Shown here one piece after another: positions 4,179 through 17,331 of a DNA stretch of 64,000 bases. How positions within the stretch are numbered: position 1 is the stretch's first letter; each line of letters begins with the position of its first letter. Made by a program: the position numbers and the translations under genes. A model generated the notes under the pieces. That model was not told the DNA's origin, searched no databases, and saw only the letters and a list, made by a program, of their open reading frames with translations. Source of the DNA: Schlesneria paludicola DSM 18645 (GTDB taxonomy: Bacteria > Planctomycetota > Planctomycetia > Planctomycetales > Planctomycetaceae); the NCBI GenBank assembly GCA_945876035.1, contig CAMCMU010000008.1:59311-123310 (forward strand). The letters are read 5' to 3'.

Positions 4179-6482
4179 ATGTCCTTGCACGATCTCCACG
4201 GGCGAGTCAAGTGGTCCTTCATTCTCGTCAGTTTTTTTCTTTCACGGACCGCTCTGTGTTTCGGTCAGGAACCGGTGATCCAGTCGACTGTCCCAGCAGC
4301 CATCCCTCCGGGTGCGATGACGACAGTGCAAATCAATGGTGCTGGCCTTGCCGTTGCCAAGGCCTTATGGACGAGCTTTTCCTGTGAGTCCGTTCTGGCA
4401 GAGGGGGTCGAAAAAAACGGCGATGATCCCTCACGCGTGACGTTCAAAATCACTGTTCCACCCGGCATTGCCTGCGGCATTCATGGAATCCGTGTTGTCA
4501 CCGACAAAGGTGTCACTCCGATAAGTTTTCTCGTGGTAGACGATCTCCCGACCATTGCATCATCTGGGAAAAACACGAGTTTTTCTGCGGCTGAAGCGGT
4601 TTCCTTTCCGGTGGCCGTTGATGGAAGCGTTCCCAGTCTGGGTCGGCATTTCTTCAAGTTCACGGTTCAGGCGGGACAGACATTATCGATCGAAGTCCTC
4701 GCCCGACGAATCGGTTCCAGCCTCGATCCTCTGATTCGTTTGCTGGATCTGAAAGGTCGAGAGATCGCCTACAACGACGATACGGTCGGACTGAATGGTG
4801 ATGCCTCGATATTTTATAAATTCCAAGAGTCGGGTGACTACACGCTCGAATTGCGAGATATCAAGTACGGTCCGGGATCCTATCGGTTAAGGATAGGTGA
4901 CTTTCCCATAGCAACGGTTGCGTATCCCCTGGCTGTTCAGCGGGGAACCGCCGCGAATGTGACTTTGGCAGGGTACGGTGTGGAGGGATTGGTGCCACTG
5001 GCGGTGGTGCTGGCATCGGATCAGCCCGACGAATGGCTGCCTATCAGTCTGAAACGCGCCGCGAATGGTGCCAGCGGTTTCAGCATGGTCGCCGTCGTTT
5101 CGACACCCCAATTCTTGGAGCTCGAACCCAACAATACCCCTGAACAAGCGAACCGAATCGAATGGGGTCACGACGTCAACGGCCGACTGGAGCAGGTTGG
5201 TGACATCGACCACTTTGTGTTTGCGGCCAAGGCGGGTCAGTCAATGACCTTCACTGGAATCACTCGACAGCAAGGTTCACCCACCGATCTAGACTTCAAG
5301 ATTTTAAACAAGCAGGGGGTCGAGGTTGCTGCTGCGGAAGATTCCGGAACGAATGAAGGTTCACTAACGTTCAAATTTCCCGCCGATGGAGATTACATGC
5401 TGGTGGTTAAAGACCTCAATCACCGCGGTGGAAGTGAGCATGCGTATCGGATCGGTGTCACGACGAATCCGGACCAATTTTCGTTGGCCTCTTCGCTGGA
5501 TACCTTCAACATCCCCGTCGGTGGTTCTGTGTTGGCGACAGTCACGGCAGTTCGAACAGGTCATACGGGACCGATTGAATTAAGCGTCCTCAAACTGCCC
5601 GCCGGTGTGACGGCTAGTCCGTCGGTGATTGGTCTCGGTCGCAACGACGCCGTCCTGACGCTGCAGGCGTCCTCGGATTTCGCAGCCGGTCAATCGCACG
5701 GTATTTCCATCGTCGGGACTGCTCGCAGCGGTGATACTGTCGTTGTCATTCCGGCTGAGATTGGTGGAGTTCTGAAGGCTCGCAACAACAACATGCGGTG
5801 GCCTCCGTCCTCCCTGAAAAAGGATCTGGTTGCCTCTTCGGCACCCGCTCCGGGATTCACTTGGCGTATCGAACCTACGGAGGTTGGTTTTGTCAAAGGC
5901 CTGTCAGCACAAGCCAAATTGATCGTCACCAGAGCCAGCGGATTTGATGAATTAGTGGCCGTGACCACGGTCGCAAACAGCCTCCCGGCGGGGATGAGCC
6001 TCGTTGCGAAAAATATTGAAAAAGGTCAGTCGGAATCGGAAATCACGATTTCTGCAAATCCTCCGGCTCTGCTCGGCGACTTTACCGTGGGACTCAGCGG
6101 CACGCTGAAACAAGGAGACAAAACGGTCGTTCAAGGATTGATGCTGCGTTTGCACCTCGATCCGTCGATGACGATCACGCTGGAACCAGCCACGGTCAAG
6201 ATCGCGAAGGGAGGGGATTTTATTCTGAAGGCGGTTGTCGTGAGAAACCCGGTTTTCACCGGTGATCTGTTGATTACTCTTCAAAATTTGCCAGTCGGAG
6301 TTTCGGCGACTTCCGCAACGATCGCTGCGGATCAAACCTCTGTTGAGATCAAACTCACGGCTCTCAACGACGCCCCGGCGACCAGTGCGAGTATCAACAC
6401 GATGACGGCCAAGGGTGAGGGGATGGTCGGAACGGCGAAGGTGGAGGCGATCTCAGAAGTCGTGCCGGTGACGATTGAGTAG
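4179..6482 (+). CDS. Secreted protein with pre-peptidase C-terminal (PPC)-like beta domains
   Basis: Signal-like N-terminus. Two PPC-type repeats: RHFFKFTVQAGQTLSIEVLARRIGSSLDPLIRLLD.. and ELEPNNTPEQANRIEWGHDVNGRLEQVGDIDHFVFAAKAGQSMTFT..DGDYMLVVKD. Confidence 0.8.
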   Translation: MSLHDLHGRVKWSFILVSFFLSRTALCFGQEPVIQSTVPAAIPPGAMTTVQINGAGLAVAKALWTSFSCESVLAEGVEKNGDDPSRVTFKITVPPGIACGIHGIRVVTDKGVTPISFLVVDDLPTIASSGKNTSFSAAEAVSFPVAVDGSVPSLGRHFFKFTVQAGQTLSIEVLARRIGSSLDPLIRLLDLKGREIAYNDDTVGLNGDASIFYKFQESGDYTLELRDIKYGPGSYRLRIGDFPIATVAYPLAVQRGTAANVTLAGYGVEGLVPLAVVLASDQPDEWLPISLKRAANGASGFSMVAVVSTPQFLELEPNNTPEQANRIEWGHDVNGRLEQVGDIDHFVFAAKAGQSMTFTGITRQQGSPTDLDFKILNKQGVEVAAAEDSGTNEGSLTFKFPADGDYMLVVKDLNHRGGSEHAYRIGVTTNPDQFSLASSLDTFNIPVGGSVLATVTAVRTGHTGPIELSVLKLPAGVTASPSVIGLGRNDAVLTLQASSDFAAGQSHGISIVGTARSGDTVVVIPAEIGGVLKARNNNMRWPPSSLKKDLVASSAPAPGFTWRIEPTEVGFVKGLSAQAKLIVTRASGFDELVAVTTVANSLPAGMSLVAKNIEKGQSESEITISANPPALLGDFTVGLSGTLKQGDKTVVQGLMLRLHLDPSMTITLEPATVKIAKGGDFILKAVVVRNPVFTGDLLITLQNLPVGVSATSATIAADQTSVEIKLTALNDAPATSASINTMTAKGEGMVGTAKVEAISEVVPVTIE

Positions 6483-6601
6483 AGTTTCATGGAGATTGAT
6501 CGGTAAAGACACTCGAGTCGGGCGTGATGAGTTTCTGATGATTTATTCTGCTCGGAATTTGAGCTGCAATCATTCGCTATTCCAAGACGGGAACGACGAT
6601 T

Positions 6602-9064
6602 ATGGAAACGAAACGATTTCTCCGCTGTCTGTTTGTGGCGGCCTTAGGCCTCCTTTCGATGAAAGTCATCGCTGCCGCCGCCCCTTCGGCGACGGAGATT
6701 GGTCAACCAACCGGCTTGATCATCAGTCCTGAGCGGTGTGTCCTGCTCAGCAATCGATCACAGCAACTGCTGCTCGTCACGGGCAACTATGCTGGCAATG
6801 ACGTTCGTGATTTGACCTCGTTTGCGACCATTACCTCGTCCAATTCTACCGTCGTGAAGATCGAGCGTTCCATTGTCTTTCCGGTTGGCAACGGTGAAGC
6901 CAGCGTCACAGTCACCGTCGGTGGCCAGACGGCCACGGTACCCGTGACGGTGAAAAATTTTGAAGCCCCCGCGCCGGTCAGCTTTAAAAATGAGACGCAG
7001 ATGGCGATGACTAAGTCGGGTTGCAACTCGGGAGCCTGCCACGGGTCACCGTCTGGTAAGGGTGGGTTCCGGTTGTCATTACGCGCCTACGATTCCGAAC
7101 TTGATATCATGACCGTCCGTTCAGAATTTTTTGGCCGAAGAACCAACATTATGGAGCCAGATGCGAGTCTGCTGCTTCGGAAGCCACTCATGGAAGTGGC
7201 TCACGGCGGGGGAAAGCGACTCAAGAAGGGAGACGCTGCTCATCGTGTCCTCGAACAATGGATTGCCGAGGGAATGCCATTCGGTCAACCGAATGAACCG
7301 GACCTCATGAAGATTGAGACGGTCCCCTCTCAAAGAGTGTTGCACGCCCCGGCAGACCGACAACAGATCTTGGTCATGGGACATTTTAGCGACGGTTCGG
7401 TTCGCGATTTAACGGCACTCACAGACTTCAGTTCGTCAAGCGAAACAATTGGATCGGTCAGTCCTCAGGGACTGGTGACAAAGCACGGCCGTGGTGAGAC
7501 TGCGGTTTTGGCGCGTTATCTCGATAAGATGTCGACCACCTCTCTGGCGTTTCTCGAAGATGTTCCCGGATTTGTCTGGAGCAATCCTCCAGAAAACAAT
7601 TTCATCGACAATGCGGTGTTCGAGAAGCTCAAGCAGTTGCAAATTCTTCCGTCGGATGTTTGCTCTGACGACGAGTTCTTGCGTCGGCTGACTCTGGACT
7701 TGACCGGGCGATTGCCGACAGCAGACGAAGCGCAAGGATTCATTGCCGCGGCCGCCGATTCGAACCGCCGTACCGCCGCCGTGGATCGACTTCTCGACAG
7801 TAATGAGTTCGCGGCATTTTGGGCGCTCAAATGGGGAGACGTATTGAGGTCCAACAGCAAAAGGCTTAAATCAGCAGGTGTCCATAAGTTTCGGGAATGG
7901 ATCTACGAATCGGTTCGCAATGATAAGCCACTCGACGCATTTGCTCGTGAATTATTGACAGCCAACGGCAGCGTGTTTGAGAATCCCCCGGCTAATTACT
8001 GGAGGGCCAGTCGCGATCCACAAGACGCGACCGAAACGACAGCGCAGTTGTTTCTGGGAGTCCGAATTCAATGTGCCAAGTGCCACAACCATCCGTTTGA
8101 ACGCTGGACACAAGATAACTATTATGGAATCGCGGCCGCATTCGCGCGGGTTGGCCGAAAGAACTCAGTCGATGCGGACGAGGAAGTGATCTTTGTTCAA
8201 CCGACCGGAGAAGTAACTCAGCCACGAACGAACAAGCAGATGAAAGTCCATCTGTTGCTCACCGGTGATGTGGACATTCCGGCAGGCGAAGATCGCAGAA
8301 ACGTTTTTGCGACGTGGCTCACATCCCCGCAGAATCCATTTTTTGCGAAAAGCGTTGCGAACCGAATCTGGGGTCATCTCATGGGACGAGGAATCGTCGA
8401 GCCGGTCGATGATTTTCGAGATTCCAATCCCCCTTCCAACGCACGACTGCTCCACGACCTCACCAAGCAATTTGTGGCACACGACTTCAGCCAGAAGTGG
8501 ATCATTCGCACGATCTGCAACAGTCGCACCTATCAACTCAGCGGTCGAAAGAATTCATTCAATCAAGAGGACGAGATCTATTGTTCACACGCCAACCCTC
8601 GACTGCTCACCGCAGAGCAGCTGCTGGATGGGATTTGCGCAGTCACAGATGTCCCAGAACAATTTCCGGGGATGCCGCTTGGCACACGGGCCTGCGAATT
8701 GGCCGATCCCCCGGTCGACAATTACTTCTTGAAAGTGTTTGGTCAACCACAACGAGAAATGGCCTGTCAATGCGAACGATCTTCGGAATCCAACCTGTCG
8801 CAGGCTCTGCAGATGATCAACGGCCCAACGGTCCATGGTAAGCTTCGGGCCGACAACGGTCGGATCGCGACGATGCTCAAAGAGGGGAAGCCGGACGCGG
8901 AAATTATTTCTGCTCTCTATCTCGCCGCCTTAGCGAGAACTCCGTCCAGTGAAGAAATGACGGCGTCCCAAACCCACATCGCTTCGCAGTCGGATAGACG
9001 GCAAGCCATGGAGGATGTCGGCTGGGCGATCTTGAACTCAAAGGAATTTTTGTTTCAACATTGA
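6602..9064 (+). CDS. DUF1549/DUF1553 domain protein with N-terminal Ig-like (BIG2-type) domains
   Basis: Signal peptide, Ig-like repeats, KSGCNSGACHGSPSGKGGFRLSLRAYD, FLRRLTLDLTGRLPTADEAQGF (DUF1549), FAKSVANRIWGHLMGRGIVEPVDDFRDSNPPSNARLLHDL (DUF1553). Confidence 0.9.
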   Translation: METKRFLRCLFVAALGLLSMKVIAAAAPSATEIGQPTGLIISPERCVLLSNRSQQLLLVTGNYAGNDVRDLTSFATITSSNSTVVKIERSIVFPVGNGEASVTVTVGGQTATVPVTVKNFEAPAPVSFKNETQMAMTKSGCNSGACHGSPSGKGGFRLSLRAYDSELDIMTVRSEFFGRRTNIMEPDASLLLRKPLMEVAHGGGKRLKKGDAAHRVLEQWIAEGMPFGQPNEPDLMKIETVPSQRVLHAPADRQQILVMGHFSDGSVRDLTALTDFSSSSETIGSVSPQGLVTKHGRGETAVLARYLDKMSTTSLAFLEDVPGFVWSNPPENNFIDNAVFEKLKQLQILPSDVCSDDEFLRRLTLDLTGRLPTADEAQGFIAAAADSNRRTAAVDRLLDSNEFAAFWALKWGDVLRSNSKRLKSAGVHKFREWIYESVRNDKPLDAFARELLTANGSVFENPPANYWRASRDPQDATETTAQLFLGVRIQCAKCHNHPFERWTQDNYYGIAAAFARVGRKNSVDADEEVIFVQPTGEVTQPRTNKQMKVHLLLTGDVDIPAGEDRRNVFATWLTSPQNPFFAKSVANRIWGHLMGRGIVEPVDDFRDSNPPSNARLLHDLTKQFVAHDFSQKWIIRTICNSRTYQLSGRKNSFNQEDEIYCSHANPRLLTAEQLLDGICAVTDVPEQFPGMPLGTRACELADPPVDNYFLKVFGQPQREMACQCERSSESNLSQALQMINGPTVHGKLRADNGRIATMLKEGKPDAEIISALYLAALARTPSSEEMTASQTHIASQSDRRQAMEDVGWAILNSKEFLFQH

Positions 9065-9596: not shown

Positions 9597-9869
9597 ATGT
9601 CACAAGCCGTCGTCGATGCGACCGAGTTGCGGCGATTCGCGGGGATGTTGCGAGAATTTAACAACGATCTCCAAGCGAGACTGGGGACCGTTTCCGGACA
9701 GCTCAATTCGCTCAATCAAACCTGGCGTGATCAGGAGCATGAAAAGTTCACGGAAGAATTCAGCCAACATTTAAAGCTACTCAGCCGATTTGTTGAAGCG
9801 AATGAACGGCATGTCCCATATCTGCTCCGAAAGGCAGAACGGATTGACGAGTACATGCAGCAGCGATGA
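9597..9869 (+). CDS. WXG100/ESAT-6-like small helical protein (type VII secretion-like target)
   Basis: ATG at 9597 gives a 90-aa protein with a helix-turn-helix hairpin look: LRRFAGMLREFNNDLQARLGTVSGQLNSLNQTWRDQEHEKFTEEFSQHLKLL, with W-R-D at the turn. It lies upstream of an FtsK/EccC-like gene. Confidence 0.72.
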   Translation: MSQAVVDATELRRFAGMLREFNNDLQARLGTVSGQLNSLNQTWRDQEHEKFTEEFSQHLKLLSRFVEANERHVPYLLRKAERIDEYMQQR

Positions 9870-9991
9870 AGGATCGGCATCGAGGAGGGGAATGACGCTG
9901 GAGCAGATCGTCCGATCATCTTCGAACGCCGTCGGGATATTTCTTGCGCTCTCGATCCTTAGGTTCCCCAACAAACAATCAAGCTGAAATT

Positions 9992-10651
9992 ATGGCCAAT
10001 CCCGGCAACGCCAACGTGCAGTCCCTCGATGCCTTGCGAGACTTTCGTTTGGCGTTGGTGGCGTTTCATGAGCGGGCTCAAACCGCAATGGCGGAATTGC
10101 GGGCGAAAATTGACCGGACGAAGGGCTGGATCGACCAAGACCGACCGCTCTATTGGCGGGAGCAGCAGCGGCGGGCTTACGATGAGGTGACAAAGACACG
10201 GATCGCGTACGATCTGTGTCGCCTCCGGACTGTGGGCGGTCGTCATTCGGAGTGTATTGAGGAAGGAGTCGCCAAGCAGCGTGCCAAAGCCCGATTGGAA
10301 TACTGCCAACAGAAGATCGATGCCGTTCGCCGATGGTCCGTTAAAGTCGGTCAGGAAGTGGATGACTACCGAGGCCGAACGGGACCAATGCAGCGACAAC
10401 TCGAAGAGGATGTCCCGAATATGCTTGCAAAGCTGTCTCGAATGATCGATGCGATCGAAGGCTATGCAGACGTTGGAATTTCTACCGCCAATTCCATGGA
10501 CTCGCGTCCTATCCGTGTTCCGGAAACGGAAACTCAGGCCGTGGCTGAACGGGTGACCCAGATCGATCTAACGGCTGCAACGAACTCGAATCCTGAATTG
10601 GAACAGAAGATGGCAGAGTCAGAGATCACAAAAAAAAAAGGTCGAAAATGA
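9992..10651 (+). CDS. Coiled-coil hypothetical protein of the type VII-like locus
   Basis: ATG at 9992. Helical, charged sequence with W-R-E motif (LYWREQQRRAYDEV). Same strand and close spacing with the WXG100-like and FtsK-like genes. Confidence 0.75.
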   Translation: MANPGNANVQSLDALRDFRLALVAFHERAQTAMAELRAKIDRTKGWIDQDRPLYWREQQRRAYDEVTKTRIAYDLCRLRTVGGRHSECIEEGVAKQRAKARLEYCQQKIDAVRRWSVKVGQEVDDYRGRTGPMQRQLEEDVPNMLAKLSRMIDAIEGYADVGISTANSMDSRPIRVPETETQAVAERVTQIDLTAATNSNPELEQKMAESEITKKKGRK

Positions 10652-10770
10652 CAACATCCGCTGAACTGTGGAGTGTCGGCCAGTGATTCTTGCTGGTTGG
10701 ATCGCTAGGTTTGTTCGGCGTTCTCTCCTGAAACCGGCTGGGTGTCACATCGAAGGACGGAGTCAACAAC

Positions 10771-11001
10771 ATGGCGTTTGGTAGCTTGATCGACGGAGCA
10801 GGACAGCTTAAGTCAACGACGGACAGGCTTGAAGAGGTCTGGTCCGTAACACGGTCGGTCTGGAATGACGATGTCAGCCGCAGGCTGGAGGAAGATCATA
10901 TCGAACCGCTGTTCAGTCAGGTTCGAACGACACTGGACGCGATCACTCGGCTCAATAGCGTTTTGACAACCGCCTGCCGCGATTGTCAAGAAAATCAGTA
11001 A
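10771..11001 (+). CDS. Small helical protein (76 aa), possibly WXG100-like
   Basis: MAFGSLIDGAGQLKSTTDRLEEVWSVTRSVWNDDVSRRLEEDHIEPLFSQVRTTLDAITRLNSVL: two helices around a W-N-D turn; immediately upstream of the FtsK-like gene. Confidence 0.65.
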   Translation: MAFGSLIDGAGQLKSTTDRLEEVWSVTRSVWNDDVSRRLEEDHIEPLFSQVRTTLDAITRLNSVLTTACRDCQENQ

Positions 11002-11141
11002 ACACCTTGTGGGGTCATGTGGGATGTCATTTTCCGCCACCTCCCAACAGATCGTCAAAACCGCAATCGTTCCGTGTTGTCAGCAGTTGGGTGGACAACG
11101 GGCGATTTCATTCCCATGAGTCTCCAACTGAGTCTGCAACT

Positions 11142-14100
11142 GTGACCACAGAACTGACCCTCGAACAAGTGCGCGTTCTTTTGCGTCGTTTACTCGCATT
11201 GGTGGCGGATCGCGTACAGCGAGAACAGTCGGTCGAGAAACACCACGTTGCCGCAGTTTTAAACGACCAACGTCAGCATGACGAAGTCTTGAATCAGTTA
11301 ACGTTGGCCTATCACTCCGAAATGGCCTCACTGCAGCAGGACCAAGGGACCCAGCAAGTCGAGTTGGAGAGTCGTTGGCGCGCGGAGGCCGAGACAGTGG
11401 CGGATGAGTATCGGCGTGCGACCGTGGAGGTTGATTCGCTTCATGCCGAAGAAACGGGCTTGGCACTTCGCGAATTTGATGAAGCCACATGGTTGGTCGG
11501 ATCGCTCTTGGACGACGATACGGACGATAGCCCTCTGACGCGTTTGCAGGCCTTGCAATCGGGAGCACTCGCGAGTCGCACCGAGTTGCAGACAGCGTTG
11601 ACTTCGATTACCGGATGGTGCAAACATTCCACGGAATATCTGAAACGCTGCCGCTTACTGAGCCGATTCGAGGCACCGACGGCGTCGGATCTCCCTGCAG
11701 ATGCCGAAAAACTGCATCGCCTGTGTGTGGAATCTCTCCGGCAGGCGGAGTTGCTCGATCGCAAACTAGCTCAAAGCGTGTTACCGCGTCTGTTTTCAGG
11801 TGTCTGGCCAGTCGTTTGGTTTCTGATTCTTGGCTCTGTTTTGCTCGTCGCGATTCGCGTGTTTATTGACCCGAAACTGATTGGACTGAAATTACGGGCC
11901 GAGACTCTTGACTGGGTTTTCATCGCGGGCGGAACCGGTGCCGCGATCAGTCTGCTGTCTCTGTTTTTCCTGCATCTCATTGCCGGAAGCGGCACATTGC
12001 ACCTCTACGAACAACTGATGCAGCTCTCGGTTGATGCCGCCGCGGCCTACCAGAGATGGATCGTTGTTTCTCAAAGAGAAATGAAAAAGAGCGAGGTCGA
12101 GCTATCGCGTTTGCACGAGGCTCGTCAGCTGAAGCGAGGGAAGGCCATAGCCAACGCCGAAGAGCGACGAACAGCACGGCTCCAAGCGGCTGACCGACAA
12201 CGCGACACAGATCGTCAATCCACCCTTGCCGATTTTCCGGTTCGGTTGGCGGAGATCGAACGAACGGGTCTTTTCGCAAGTCAGCAACGAGGGGAACAGT
12301 TTGAATCTGCCAGACGGATCCGTCACGAACGACAGGACCATGACCTTCGACGATTGCAGGAGGAGTTTCAGGAAAGAAATTCAACACAGTTGAAAAATCA
12401 CCGACAGAATGAGCTTGATTTGATCCGCGATTGGCAGTGCACATTGCGTGAGTTGCTGCAGTCGTCGGATTCATTCCAAGAGGCGATGACTCGCAACAGT
12501 CCCGGATGGAGTCAAGTCGTTGAAAATCTGCAGCAGCAGATCGCATCTTCCAAAGCACGCTCTTCCAGCAGACTCAGCGCGGCGGACGTGGATTCGGTTA
12601 CCGCCACGGGAGAGGCCTTCGATGATCGCTTGCGATTGTCTCTCGGCCGGCTCATCGCGGATTTAAAAGACATCGAGCAGGGGGTTTCGAGCGATCCCCA
12701 ACTGGCAGTGGATCGGACTTGGTTTGATCTTCCCGTCATTGTTGCCTTGGCCGATCGGCCGTCGCTGTTCGTCCATTTTCAAGAAGCGACACGTACGGCC
12801 GCGACCGGTATCTTGCAGACGGCGATGCTTCGATTTCTCACCTCGCTCCCCGCCGGAAACGTGAGATTCACGATTTTGGATCCGGTGGGGCTCGGAGCCA
12901 ACTTCGCATCGTTCATGCATCTCACCGACATTGATGAGCAACTCGTGACCAGTCGTATCTGGACGGAAGCGGCGCACATCGAGACTCGCCTCGCTGATCT
13001 GACAGAGCATATGGAGACAGTTCTTCAAACCTATCTTCGCAATGAGTATTCGACGCTCGATGACTATAACCGCGAGGCCGGTGAAGTGGCCGAGCCGTAC
13101 CGCGTGTTGGTCGTTGCCAATTTTCCGGCCGGTTTTACGGAAGTGTCACTGCGTCGCATGGTCAGTATCGCGGAGGGTGGGGTCAAGTGTGGCGTATTCA
13201 TGCTGGTCAGCTTCGATGAATCTCAACCGTTGCCGCGAGGATTCTCGCTTTCTGAACTCCAACGCCATGCCGTCGTTTTACGCGTCCCTCCTGCGGTGAC
13301 AGCCGCCGGAGAGAAGAAGGGATTCCATCAAGATCTCCTCAGTGACGAAATCGGGGAATCCGAGGCGGTGGTGGGTCGGTCTCCTGACCGCGTGCACCGC
13401 ATAACCGAAGGTCTGCAAAGTCAACAGGCGGCCCGGAGTCACATCGAGGGGCGTGGTCGGGAGACCGCGTCACAACGAACGGGAATGCTCATTTCGCCAT
13501 TTCGATTCGCCGATCCTGAATTGAGTGTGTGGCCACTCCACATGGATGAGCCTCCCGACGCCGACCAGTTTGGCAGAATCGTGCGTCTTGCGGGTGAACT
13601 GGCCCGTTCGGTACGTCGTGTGGAAGTTCCGTTCGAGCGAGTCATGCCCCAGAAAGACTTGTACTGGACGTTCAGCAGTCGCGCAGGCCTGGACGTTCCC
13701 ATTGGACGAGCGGGGGCTACGAAGTTACAGCATCTGAGACTGGGAAAGGGAACCTCGCAACATGTGCTTGTCGCAGGGAAAACCGGATCGGGAAAGTCGT
13801 CTTTGCTTCATGCCCTCATCACAAATGCCGCACTTCATTACAGCCCGAATGAAGTGGAGTTTTACCTGATTGACTTCAAAAAAGGTGTCGAATTCAAGAC
13901 CTATGCCACTCAGCGACTACCGCACGCGCGCGTCATCGCTATCGAGAGTGATCGCGAATTCGGCGTCAGTGTGCTTCAACGGCTGGACGAATTACTCAAG
14001 GATCGCGGCGACTTGTTTCGTCGAGAGGGAGTGCAGGACTTAGCGGGCTATCGCGACGCCAAACCTGGTAGTCCGATGCCGCGTGTGATGTTAGTCATTG

Positions 14101-15605
14101 ATGAATTTCAGGAGTTCTTCGTTGAAGACGATGTCCTGTCGCAGCAGGCCAACCTGCTGTTCGATCGTCTGATTCGACAGGGTCGTGCCTTTGGAGTTCA
14201 CGTTCTACTCGGCAGCCAGACACTGGCCGGAGCCTATTCCCTGGCGCGTAGCACTCTCGGTCAAATCGCGGTCCGTATCGCGCTCCAATGTAGCGAAGCC
14301 GATGCGCATCTGATTCTCAGTGAGGATAATACAGCCGCACGGCTGTTGTCTCGTCCTGGAGAGGCAATCTACAACGATGCGAACGGTTTGATTGAAGGGA
14401 ATCATCCGTTTCAGGTCGTATGGCTGGACGACTCACAACGTGAAACAAGTCTCGGTTTGGTACGTGAGTTGTTGAATGAGCGTCCTCACGCCAGTCCTCG
14501 GACGCTTGGGTTGGAGACGGTCGTGTTTGAAGGCAACATCGCTGCGGATCCGCAGGCGAATCCGCAGTGGGTTGAAATCATCGAGGCTTTTTCGGCACCG
14601 TCCGATTCATCGTTGGCGAGCGCGTCCTCGAACACCGTGTCAACGCTCCGATGCTGGTTGGGTGAGTCGGTTTCGTTGACCGGGCCACTTGATCTGCGTT
14701 TTGGTCCCCGTGACGGTGGGCCGGTGATGTTGATTGGTCGTGACGACGATGCTGCTCTCGGTGTCTTGACGGCAACCGTCTTGGCGTTGATGGGGCAGGG
14801 GGCATCGGTCAACCCGGGGTTGCCTCGAGCAAAGTTCGTGGTTCTCGACGGCAGTCTTCCGGACAGTAACGCGAACAAGTGTTGGCTGGAGATTGCCAAA
14901 CTTGGCAAAGGAGATTGCTGTCAAGTCGCCGGGCCGCGTGAAACAACCGCCGCGCTGCAGTCTGTTGTGGAGGAGATTAAAAAGCGAGCGAATACCGTTG
15001 CCGAACCAATCTTTGTGATCGTGTACGACATCTCCCGCTTCCGTGATCTGAAGAAGGCCGAGGACGATTATGGAGGCTACGGCGGAAGCGATAAGGAACA
15101 GGTTGTGAATCCCTCTGCGCTCTGGTCCGAGATCGTCAAGGATGGGCCCGCCGCCGGAGTCTTTCCAATCGTATGGTGTGACGGCTTTCAAACGGCGCAA
15201 CGCTGGCTGGGTCGTGAACTGCTCAACCGCTTCGAGACACGAATCCTCTTTGCCATGAACGCCAACGATTCCAGTAACCTGATTGACAGCCCCGCCGCCT
15301 CTAAGTTGGGGCCAAACCGCGCTCTGCTGTCACGCGGTGATCTCGGGACGATCGACAAATTCCGCCCGTATGGGGTCCTCTCTCCAGAACGAATCGCCGA
15401 ACTGACGCAGCCTGAACGCCGACTGAACAGCGTTGCCGAATCGATCACGTATCCCCCTGCAGACGATCGTCCGGCAATCGCTGACGAGCCCGCCGAACAC
15501 CCGCCGAGTACAATCGCTCTGAATGCCGCAACCAGTCCCGTCGAGTCATCCAACGATGTGAGTCCGGTCGGTTGGACCAGCATCGACGAACTCAACGTCC
15601 TCTGA
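11142..15605 (+). CDS. FtsK/SpoIIIE (EccC/EssC-like) ATPase with N-terminal coiled coil and two transmembrane helices
   Basis: Walker A HVLVAGKTGSGKSSLLHALI; Walker B RVMLVIDEFQEFF; TM-like VWPVVWFLILGSVLLVAIRVF and WVFIAGGTGAAISLLSLFFLHLIAG; degenerate ATPase-like domains either side of the canonical one. The open frame extends to a TTG at 10983; GTG at 11142 is my preferred start but is not certain. Confidence 0.85.
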   Translation: MTTELTLEQVRVLLRRLLALVADRVQREQSVEKHHVAAVLNDQRQHDEVLNQLTLAYHSEMASLQQDQGTQQVELESRWRAEAETVADEYRRATVEVDSLHAEETGLALREFDEATWLVGSLLDDDTDDSPLTRLQALQSGALASRTELQTALTSITGWCKHSTEYLKRCRLLSRFEAPTASDLPADAEKLHRLCVESLRQAELLDRKLAQSVLPRLFSGVWPVVWFLILGSVLLVAIRVFIDPKLIGLKLRAETLDWVFIAGGTGAAISLLSLFFLHLIAGSGTLHLYEQLMQLSVDAAAAYQRWIVVSQREMKKSEVELSRLHEARQLKRGKAIANAEERRTARLQAADRQRDTDRQSTLADFPVRLAEIERTGLFASQQRGEQFESARRIRHERQDHDLRRLQEEFQERNSTQLKNHRQNELDLIRDWQCTLRELLQSSDSFQEAMTRNSPGWSQVVENLQQQIASSKARSSSRLSAADVDSVTATGEAFDDRLRLSLGRLIADLKDIEQGVSSDPQLAVDRTWFDLPVIVALADRPSLFVHFQEATRTAATGILQTAMLRFLTSLPAGNVRFTILDPVGLGANFASFMHLTDIDEQLVTSRIWTEAAHIETRLADLTEHMETVLQTYLRNEYSTLDDYNREAGEVAEPYRVLVVANFPAGFTEVSLRRMVSIAEGGVKCGVFMLVSFDESQPLPRGFSLSELQRHAVVLRVPPAVTAAGEKKGFHQDLLSDEIGESEAVVGRSPDRVHRITEGLQSQQAARSHIEGRGRETASQRTGMLISPFRFADPELSVWPLHMDEPPDADQFGRIVRLAGELARSVRRVEVPFERVMPQKDLYWTFSSRAGLDVPIGRAGATKLQHLRLGKGTSQHVLVAGKTGSGKSSLLHALITNAALHYSPNEVEFYLIDFKKGVEFKTYATQRLPHARVIAIESDREFGVSVLQRLDELLKDRGDLFRREGVQDLAGYRDAKPGSPMPRVMLVIDEFQEFFVEDDVLSQQANLLFDRLIRQGRAFGVHVLLGSQTLAGAYSLARSTLGQIAVRIALQCSEADAHLILSEDNTAARLLSRPGEAIYNDANGLIEGNHPFQVVWLDDSQRETSLGLVRELLNERPHASPRTLGLETVVFEGNIAADPQANPQWVEIIEAFSAPSDSSLASASSNTVSTLRCWLGESVSLTGPLDLRFGPRDGGPVMLIGRDDDAALGVLTATVLALMGQGASVNPGLPRAKFVVLDGSLPDSNANKCWLEIAKLGKGDCCQVAGPRETTAALQSVVEEIKKRANTVAEPIFVIVYDISRFRDLKKAEDDYGGYGGSDKEQVVNPSALWSEIVKDGPAAGVFPIVWCDGFQTAQRWLGRELLNRFETRILFAMNANDSSNLIDSPAASKLGPNRALLSRGDLGTIDKFRPYGVLSPERIAELTQPERRLNSVAESITYPPADDRPAIADEPAEHPPSTIALNAATSPVESSNDVSPVGWTSIDELNVL

Positions 15606-16017
15606 CGGAATGACACTGCTGGAATGTCAAGGCGATCACGGATTGCCTCGATGTTCAAGCAGGCAATGTCTGGTCCCCGCCACGGATTTAAAGCGGATCT
15701 GCTGAGGCAGTTGCCACGGTGAACGCAGTCGCTCCACGACCGGCGAAATCTGGGCACAGGAGTCCTCTGTGCCACCGCTTGATTTGCCGCTTGAGGGTCC
15801 GGTTCATACGTGTCTTGTCCTCGTGCGGAGACGGGGGTCGGCGCCACGTTCTCGCGGCTTGCCGTCTGCCACTCGGTGGTCAGTTCCCACGCCGAGCCTG
15901 AGAGTCACGAGAGCACTTCCAGCGACTCGCATTGAGCAGAGACATTCGTATAGACTCTTCGGGCGGTCAGCCCGCAGCCGTCCGCGTCAATCTTCAATCA
16001 GAAGAGAGGGCAAGTCG

Positions 16018-17331
16018 ATGTCACTCGTGTTCTTTTACCGCAGTCGCTGGATCAGCTTCGTCAGGGCATTTGTGGCCGTGTTGTTGTGGCTTGTTGCGGC
16101 AGATCGCTCTTCCGCTCAGTCTTCGTCCGCCCTATCTCAAGAGGCCGTAGCGGGTGAATGGTCGCAGTTCCTCGGCCCGCAACGCAACGGTCTATCGAGT
16201 GAGACCGGGTTGCTGGAAATGTGGCCCGATGGTGGCCCGAAACAAGTCTGGCGAGTCAGCGGTGGAGTGGGCATGTCCGGTTTGGCCATCAGTCGTGGTC
16301 GTGTCCTGACAATGCTTCAGCGCGAGGGACAGCAGTGGTTGGTGGCATTGAATGCTGCGACAGGTGAGTCGATTTGGAATGCACCGATTGCGAACGCGTA
16401 CCGCAATTCGATGGGAGACGGTCCCCGTGCGACGCCAACCGTCTCCGGTGATCGAGTCTTTATCTTTAGCGGTGAGGGTCGGCTGGCCGCGATCGATTTT
16501 AAGAATGGCTCGCCACTCTGGTCGCACGATGCGTTGACGGATTTGTCAGGCACAGAGGCGGAGTACGGGATGGCGAGTTCTCCACTCGTGATTGGCGATC
16601 AAGTCATCGTAAACGTTGGCGCTGCGAAGGGAACTCTCGTGGCCTACGACACGAAAACCGGAAAGCAGATTTGGGCGGCGGGCAAGGATTCGGCAGGCTA
16701 CTCGTCACCGATCCTGCTGGATCTTGGCGGCCGCTCTCAAATCGTGTCGTACACGGGCCAAGCGGCATTCGGAGTCGCTCCTAAGACGGGTGAGGTGCTG
16801 TGGCGATATCCCTTCGAAACAAGTTACGACTGCAACATCGCGATGCCTCTTGCAATCAAAGGACAACTCTTTCTGTCGGCAGGCGAAAATCACGGCAGCG
16901 TGTTACTCGATCTGAAACCGAAGGGTGACAAGTTTGAGATCACCGAAGTCTGGCAGTCGTTCGGACCGAAGAGCGTCCTACGCAGTGAATGGCAGACGCC
17001 GTTGCTGCTCGATGGTTTCCTGTACGGTATGGACAACGTCGGCGGTGCCGGTCCGGTAACACATCTGACGTGTGTCAACGCGATGACCGGCGTGCGCGCG
17101 TGGCAGGTGCTACGATTCGGTAAGGGCAATCTCATCGCCGCCGACGGTAAACTGTTCATGACGACGCTGGCTGGTGAGTTGGTCGTAGCGCGGGTGTCCT
17201 CGAAGAAGTACGACGAATTGGGACGAGTCACCCTCATGGAGACAACGCGACAACCTCCCGCATTGTCCAACGGATATCTCTACTTGCGAGACGGTCGTGA
17301 GATTCTCTGCCTCGACGTGCGCAAACCGTGA
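16018..17331 (+). CDS. PQQ-binding-like beta-propeller repeat protein, secreted
   Basis: Signal peptide from ATG 16018; repeated blades such as LVALNAATGESIW, LAAIDFKNGSPLW, LVAYDTKTGKQIWAAGKDSAGYSSPILLDLGG. Confidence 0.9.
   Translation: MSLVFFYRSRWISFVRAFVAVLLWLVAADRSSAQSSSALSQEAVAGEWSQFLGPQRNGLSSETGLLEMWPDGGPKQVWRVSGGVGMSGLAISRGRVLTMLQREGQQWLVALNAATGESIWNAPIANAYRNSMGDGPRATPTVSGDRVFIFSGEGRLAAIDFKNGSPLWSHDALTDLSGTEAEYGMASSPLVIGDQVIVNVGAAKGTLVAYDTKTGKQIWAAGKDSAGYSSPILLDLGGRSQIVSYTGQAAFGVAPKTGEVLWRYPFETSYDCNIAMPLAIKGQLFLSAGENHGSVLLDLKPKGDKFEITEVWQSFGPKSVLRSEWQTPLLLDGFLYGMDNVGGAGPVTHLTCVNAMTGVRAWQVLRFGKGNLIAADGKLFMTTLAGELVVARVSSKKYDELGRVTLMETTRQPPALSNGYLYLRDGREILCLDVRKP

Follow-up and report, generated by a model that had tools for sequence, protein, structure and literature searches.

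Four consecutive genes on the forward strand form the locus described here. They lie within the window, the whole 64,000-nucleotide stretch of DNA that was analysed. An earlier note on this DNA had placed four same-strand genes in a row at this position and all four open reading frames are confirmed (A to D, Table 1). The start of gene D is a GTG codon assigned from homologues and its exact position is uncertain. In the window the genes are separated by gaps of about 120 nucleotides; elsewhere a 4-nucleotide overlap of B with C is seen at roughly half of the loci. The flanking genes are unlinked to the block in other genomes.

Table 1. Genes, domains and flanks of the locus, with positions in the window
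Feature	Position	Strand	Description
Gene A	9597..9869	+	90 aa, WXG100-family helical hairpin, W43-R-D45; HP0062-like
Gene B	9992..10651	+	219 aa; conserved core of ~180 aa, predicted antiparallel helical hairpin, low-confidence tail of ~50 aa
Gene C	10771..11001	+	76 aa, WXG100-like protein, invariant W31-x-D33
Gene D	11142..15605	+	1487 aa, membrane-anchored EccC/EssC-type ATPase
D, hydrophobic segments	approx. 11811..11972	+	probably transmembrane (Kyte-Doolittle), residues ~224-242 and ~259-277, between coiled-coil stretches
D, first RecA-like domain	12624..13283	+	degenerate, P-loop in 0/79
D, middle RecA-like domain	13641..14426	+	Walker A AGKTGSGKS, Walker B LVIDEFQE; 79/79
D, third RecA-like domain	14631..15416	+	degenerate, P-loop in 0/79
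Flanking genes	4179-9064 and 15769-17331		common planctomycete families: PPC, DUF1549/DUF1553, PQQ beta-propeller

The ATPase

Gene D had been described as an FtsK/SpoIIIE protein with two transmembrane helices, and both elements were found: an FtsK_SpoIIIE domain (Pfam, 105 bits) and two hydrophobic segments, which Kyte-Doolittle analysis also places in 59 of 78 D proteins. Three tandem RecA-like domains follow the two helices, the latter assigned by hydropathy only. The GxxxxGK[ST] loop is confined to the middle domain, where all 79 D proteins carry it.

The NCBIfam models for EccC and EssC score D at 86-104 bits, compared with 28.7 bits for FtsK, and this ranking is repeated in five other PVC D proteins. 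The scores of the PVC proteins, 86-119 bits, fall below the curated EccC/EssC cut-offs of 346-778, which places D in the EccC/EssC superfamily but not among the members of those equivalogs. A structural model covering residues 495-1425 has a mean pLDDT of 82.5. EccC heads the results of both a profile search of the PDB and a Foldseek search with this model (4nh0, E 2e-29 by fold); EssC follows, and by fold FtsK and TcpA come after these. The EccC match spans all three RecA-like domains, the FtsK match one. The FtsK gamma domain is absent among the Pfam matches of D up to E 10.

Judged by these scores and the predicted fold, D is an EccC/EssC-type ATPase and not a chromosome FtsK, an identity that the model scores and fold match rule out. 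The concern raised in the earlier note, that the ATPase might sort with the chromosome FtsK/SpoIIIE proteins, is answered in the same way, D being nearer EccC/EssC by sequence and by fold. Like EccC of actinobacteria and EssC/YukB of firmicutes, its best matches on both counts, D is membrane-anchored, has three tandem RecA-like domains and is accompanied by WXG100 partners. It differs in the restriction of the P-loop to the middle domain, in the long coiled-coil stretches that flank its transmembrane helices, in scores below the curated cut-offs and in the company it keeps, since EssB and YukD were not detected in ten carrier genomes. The chromosome translocases FtsK and SpoIIIE belong to the same ATPase superfamily but match more weakly, over one domain. 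One locus (L035:10761) carries a second D-like open reading frame, with A, B and C not beside it.

The three small proteins

Protein A exceeds the Pfam WXG100 cut-off (PF06013; 28.2 bits against 27.3), as the earlier note's WXG100-like reading would have it, and all 59 homologues match the same family. Their length is 89-91 residues without exception. With a size near 100 residues and a variant of the W motif, W-R-D in place of W-x-G, predicted between two helices, A qualifies by sequence as a member of the WXG100 family. A profile of A against the PDB returns Helicobacter pylori HP0062 first (3fx7, 1.1e-10), with EsxB and EsxA next, and the hairpin that the earlier note had required of the small proteins is to be expected of A from these solved relatives. 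HP0062 (PDB codes 3FX7 and 2GTS) is a dimeric hairpin that, like A, carries WRD at its bend, and its gene is clustered with one for an FtsK/SpoIIIE protein, as A is with D (PMC3397514). The similarity amounts to only some 45 bits across different phyla. The four-gene set supplies a family context for HP0062, a protein of solved structure.

A is the only WXG100 protein found in the source genome and is present in a single copy. Across 31 carrier genomes it is likewise the sole WXG100 match, with two exceptions: an additional match in G360, which falls on gene C of the same locus (cf. L102), and a weak one in G137. A second candidate in the source genome, at C49, was rejected: the match is weak (17.9 bits, below the cut-off) and lies over a coiled-coil open reading frame that we take by eye to be FliJ-like and that adjoins an ATPase taken in the same way to be FliI-like.

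Protein C has an invariant W-x-D in 64 of 64 aligned members, of which six match WXG100 weakly, and its profile finds A with a weak score. By sequence, C is weakly WXG100-like.

The earlier note had grouped all three small proteins by a W-x-[D/E] motif. This stands for A and C but not for B, in which W55-R-E lies within a continuous predicted helix (residues 12-79), away from the hairpin turn. An AlphaFold2 model from a 57-row alignment pairs this helix with a second (86-166) in antiparallel fashion, with pLDDT mostly above 90 over the hairpin. There is no family match for B, nor WXG100 among the Pfam families listed, and the core of about 180 residues compares with the approximately 100 expected of a WXG100 protein. 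As modelled, B is a long helical hairpin and not a WXG100 protein. A fold search gave generic coiled coils only, none of them reaching E <= 0.001; a chain of the TelA-LXG complex appeared at E 0.46, which does not count as evidence.

The family comprises 62 homologues of B, counting that of the window, all at the same position. Most PVC B proteins stop at the core and carry no payload, while some from Phycisphaerae have an Imm33-like C-terminal domain. Such an extension, Imm33-like by Pfam, is seen at four loci (L034, L041, L042 and L054), and those at L084, L089 and L090 read as similar to it.

Conservation, linkage and co-occurrence

A scan of contigs for D-related proteins yielded 236, of which the best 80 were kept; with the window these make 81 loci. 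The order A-B-C-D is the same in 59 of the 81, in Planctomycetota, Verrucomicrobiota and Lentisphaerota, and the neighbourhood survey proposed in the earlier note thus finds the linkage kept. Clustering of the flanking open reading frames at these loci showed no further gene to be associated with it. The flank clusters that recur consist of opposite-strand open reading frames over the block, common planctomycete families and synteny shared by a few close relatives.

In 22 genomes A is missing from the D locus; 19 of them carry A elsewhere, in one copy each. In two of the remaining three (L048 and L056) the contig breaks off shortly before B, and the absence of A may simply reflect the assembly. 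A search for B in 21 genomes, chosen mostly for an unlinked A, gave strong matches in 19, a weak match in one and none in the remaining one. In G024, a single-contig genome, megabases separate A, B and D from one another.

The co-occurrence extends to whole phyla. Of 392 Planctomycetota genomes, 60 carry A and 60 carry D: both genes are present in 57, A only in three and D only in three. The six discordant genomes are all assemblies of at least 320 contigs. The Fisher value for this co-occurrence, 5e-61, takes no account of relatedness and should not be read as a calibrated probability. Both genes are present in 14 of 289 Verrucomicrobiota genomes. There the one genome with D alone (G400) has a contig that breaks off shortly before B. 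A without D is represented by a weak match in G599 and by G609, in which a longer open reading frame beside a divergent D includes the A-like part as a fusion. In the latter (L178:4554-5939) the A-like WXG100 domain occupies the C-terminal end, residues 371-458, of a 461-residue open reading frame, followed by the D-like ATPase and then by an open reading frame that reads like a VWA protein. The set is present in about 15% of the Planctomycetota and 5% of the Verrucomicrobiota genomes sampled. Singulisphaera acidiphila and Tautonia sociabilis are among the carriers, and methods for genetic manipulation have been described in some planctomycetes (PMC4910669).

The blocks at 59 of 81 loci, together with the near-coincident sets of genomes with A and D, rule out chance co-location. 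All four genes act like a single functional unit: they are kept together in a block or, if dispersed, each persists in one copy within the genome; the 4-nucleotide overlaps of B and C were counted as coupling in support of this. The genome-wide co-occurrence of A and D is new as far as the openly searchable literature goes. Searches, with subscription journals outside their reach, found nothing on B, on C or on the co-occurrence, and those for type VII secretion or WXG100 proteins in planctomycetes or verrucomicrobia gave nothing direct.

Inheritance and divergent relatives

In a tree of D proteins the Planctomycetota stand apart from the Verrucomicrobiota plus Lentisphaerota. The phylum labels change twice, which is the minimum, compared with a mean of 17 when shuffled, so vertical inheritance accompanied by many losses seems to account for the PVC copies. 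Going by this tree, the PVC branch does not look mobile. Two records titled Candidatus Kuenenia stuttgartiensis (L051 and L053) have a D that falls among Planctomycetaceae; the titles may be wrong.

A second branch of D, partly on plasmids, has nuclease-like proteins in the position of B, and outside PVC the proteins at this position are larger than B. An island on a Caballeronia plasmid (L174) encodes, in order, a VWA protein, an A-like protein, proteins of 436, 113 and 76 residues, a D-like ATPase, a CARF protein, a second VWA protein, a PP2C and a kinase. On a Helicobacter plasmid (L176:9131-13533) the row is an A-like gene, a WHH/colicin-DNase protein, a SUKH-family gene, a 77-residue gene and a D-like ATPase. 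The order on a Rhodococcus plasmid is D-like, the protein in B's position, 73 residues and A-like. When A was searched against plasmid records a single, divergent match resulted. A B-like N-terminus was sought in these relatives; the Rhodococcus match (E 1.6e-7) lies over a coiled-coil stretch and is not convincing, and those in Caballeronia and Helicobacter are not significant.

The verrucomicrobial genome G625 has the PVC block and, in addition, an island (L179:6666-14553) that resembles that of Caballeronia: VWA, A-like, proteins of 442, 125 and 82 residues, a D-like ATPase and a Card1-like protein. We read the 436- and 442-residue proteins of the two islands as nucleases; Pfam gives no match for either.

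The nearest published description is that of Zhang et al. 2012 (PMC3482391), a system with the same type of ATPase and a WXG protein for which planctomycetes and verrucomicrobia are named. B and C are not described there, and a table footnote calls the ATPase type 'mobile versions of T7SS', whereas the PVC branch here follows the phyla.

Function

What might such a set do? WXG100 proteins pair with EccC/EssC ATPases in type VII secretion, which has been studied mostly in actinobacteria and firmicutes and which employs several membrane proteins besides the ATPase. The matches of A and D support the pairing of a WXG100-type protein with an EccC/EssC-type ATPase, as had been supposed for this locus. 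YukC/EssB and YukD were found in none of ten carrier genomes, with Bacillus subtilis matched as a positive control; by this search the set is not a canonical T7SSb, in which both are present. EccB was likewise found in none of the ten, in a search where no positive control matched either. Within the final 30 residues, the C-terminal export motif YxxxD/E occurs in no A protein (0/59), in no C protein (0/64) and in 3 of 62 B proteins. No toxin-immunity pair was seen at PVC loci.

Our preferred explanation, at a probability of roughly 0.5, is that the set constitutes a compact translocase that resembles type VII secretion and is passed on vertically. It draws on the nature of D and A, on a conserved block devoid of conserved neighbours, on the co-occurrence of A and D even where unlinked, on the single-copy A and on the P-loop of the middle domain. 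The larger proteins in B's position outside PVC, among them the Helicobacter nuclease followed by SUKH, and the Imm33-like B proteins of Phycisphaerae point the same way, as does the finding that LXG effectors require two WXG100-like partners for export (PMC9600955). Against it stand the scarcity of export motifs, the bare core of most PVC B proteins, the lack of toxin-immunity pairs at PVC loci, of EssB and YukD and of a known outer-membrane route, and the VWA and CARF/Card1 genes near the relatives, which would fit an intracellular role equally well. With no export motif in A, no payload on most B proteins and no outer-membrane route, we regard export by the set as an even call.

In such a translocase A, C and B would assemble into a helical complex, comparable to WXG100/Lap/LXG or PE/PPE complexes, that may bind to the tandem ATPase domains of D in the cytosol. 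A and C might target B to D, by analogy with LXG, Lap1 and Lap2, where two small WXG100-like hairpins bind a longer helical protein in a set-up like that of B, A and C (PMC9600955). Hydrolysis of ATP in the middle domain of D would then drive B into the inner membrane or across it, either by itself or together with a C-terminal domain. The analogy has its differences: B has no significant similarity to LXG effectors, most B proteins have no toxin domain, and the FxxxD motif is present in only 8 of 64 C proteins. A bolder version, that the four proteins alone form a complete diderm translocase, an ancient branch of type VII secretion with no need of EccB/D/E or EssA/B/EsaA and with B an exported adaptor and A and C its targeting factors, is in our view doubtful. 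Four genes with an EccC-type motor and one WXG100 protein, maintained jointly in three diderm phyla in the absence of the other membrane proteins, would show what the motor core needs, and the set offers a small system in which to test these requirements.

The main competitor, which we consider unlikely though no more so than that bolder version, is an intracellular machine for conflict or stress response, in which membrane-anchored D keeps the hairpin proteins inactive, in some lineages a nuclease as well, until a signal causes it to release or remodel them, with nothing exported. The plasmid-borne Caballeronia and Helicobacter relatives, the islands of the second branch with their VWA, CARF/Card1, PP2C, kinase and nuclease-like genes, and the paucity of export motifs all suit it. 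The PVC block, stably inherited, has no such neighbours, and PADLOC gave nothing beyond generic FtsK/HerA-type matches. A SUKH gene beside a WHH nuclease, as in Helicobacter, is moreover an arrangement typical of secreted toxin-immunity pairs. Less probable again is a structural machine of the cell envelope, such as an anchored scaffold or a division-related motor, with A, B and C as permanent subunits and no translocation. Single copies, vertical inheritance, B proteins mostly free of payload and the long coiled coils of D and B would be in keeping with this, but the patchy distribution indicates that the set is not core, and D is closest to a secretion motor.

Two further explanations are more improbable by a clear step. 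That the set is a mobile version of the type VII system spreading between genomes, following the footnote of Zhang et al. 2012 (PMC3482391), we consider very unlikely; it would account for relatives on Caballeronia, Rhodococcus and Helicobacter plasmids but agrees poorly with the grouping of PVC D proteins by phylum. That the set is a DNA translocase similar to FtsK, SpoIIIE or TraB, together with its accessory proteins, is already disfavoured and ranks marginally lower still: the shared FtsK/SpoIIIE domain and the FtsK and TcpA fold matches are set against the pairing of D with WXG100 proteins, the three-domain match to EccC, the missing gamma domain and a lead of about 75-90 bits for the best EccC/EssC model over FtsK in every PVC D protein tested. 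With respect to mobility, the lone plasmid match of A is divergent, and in several genomes the genes of the set are scattered over the chromosome.
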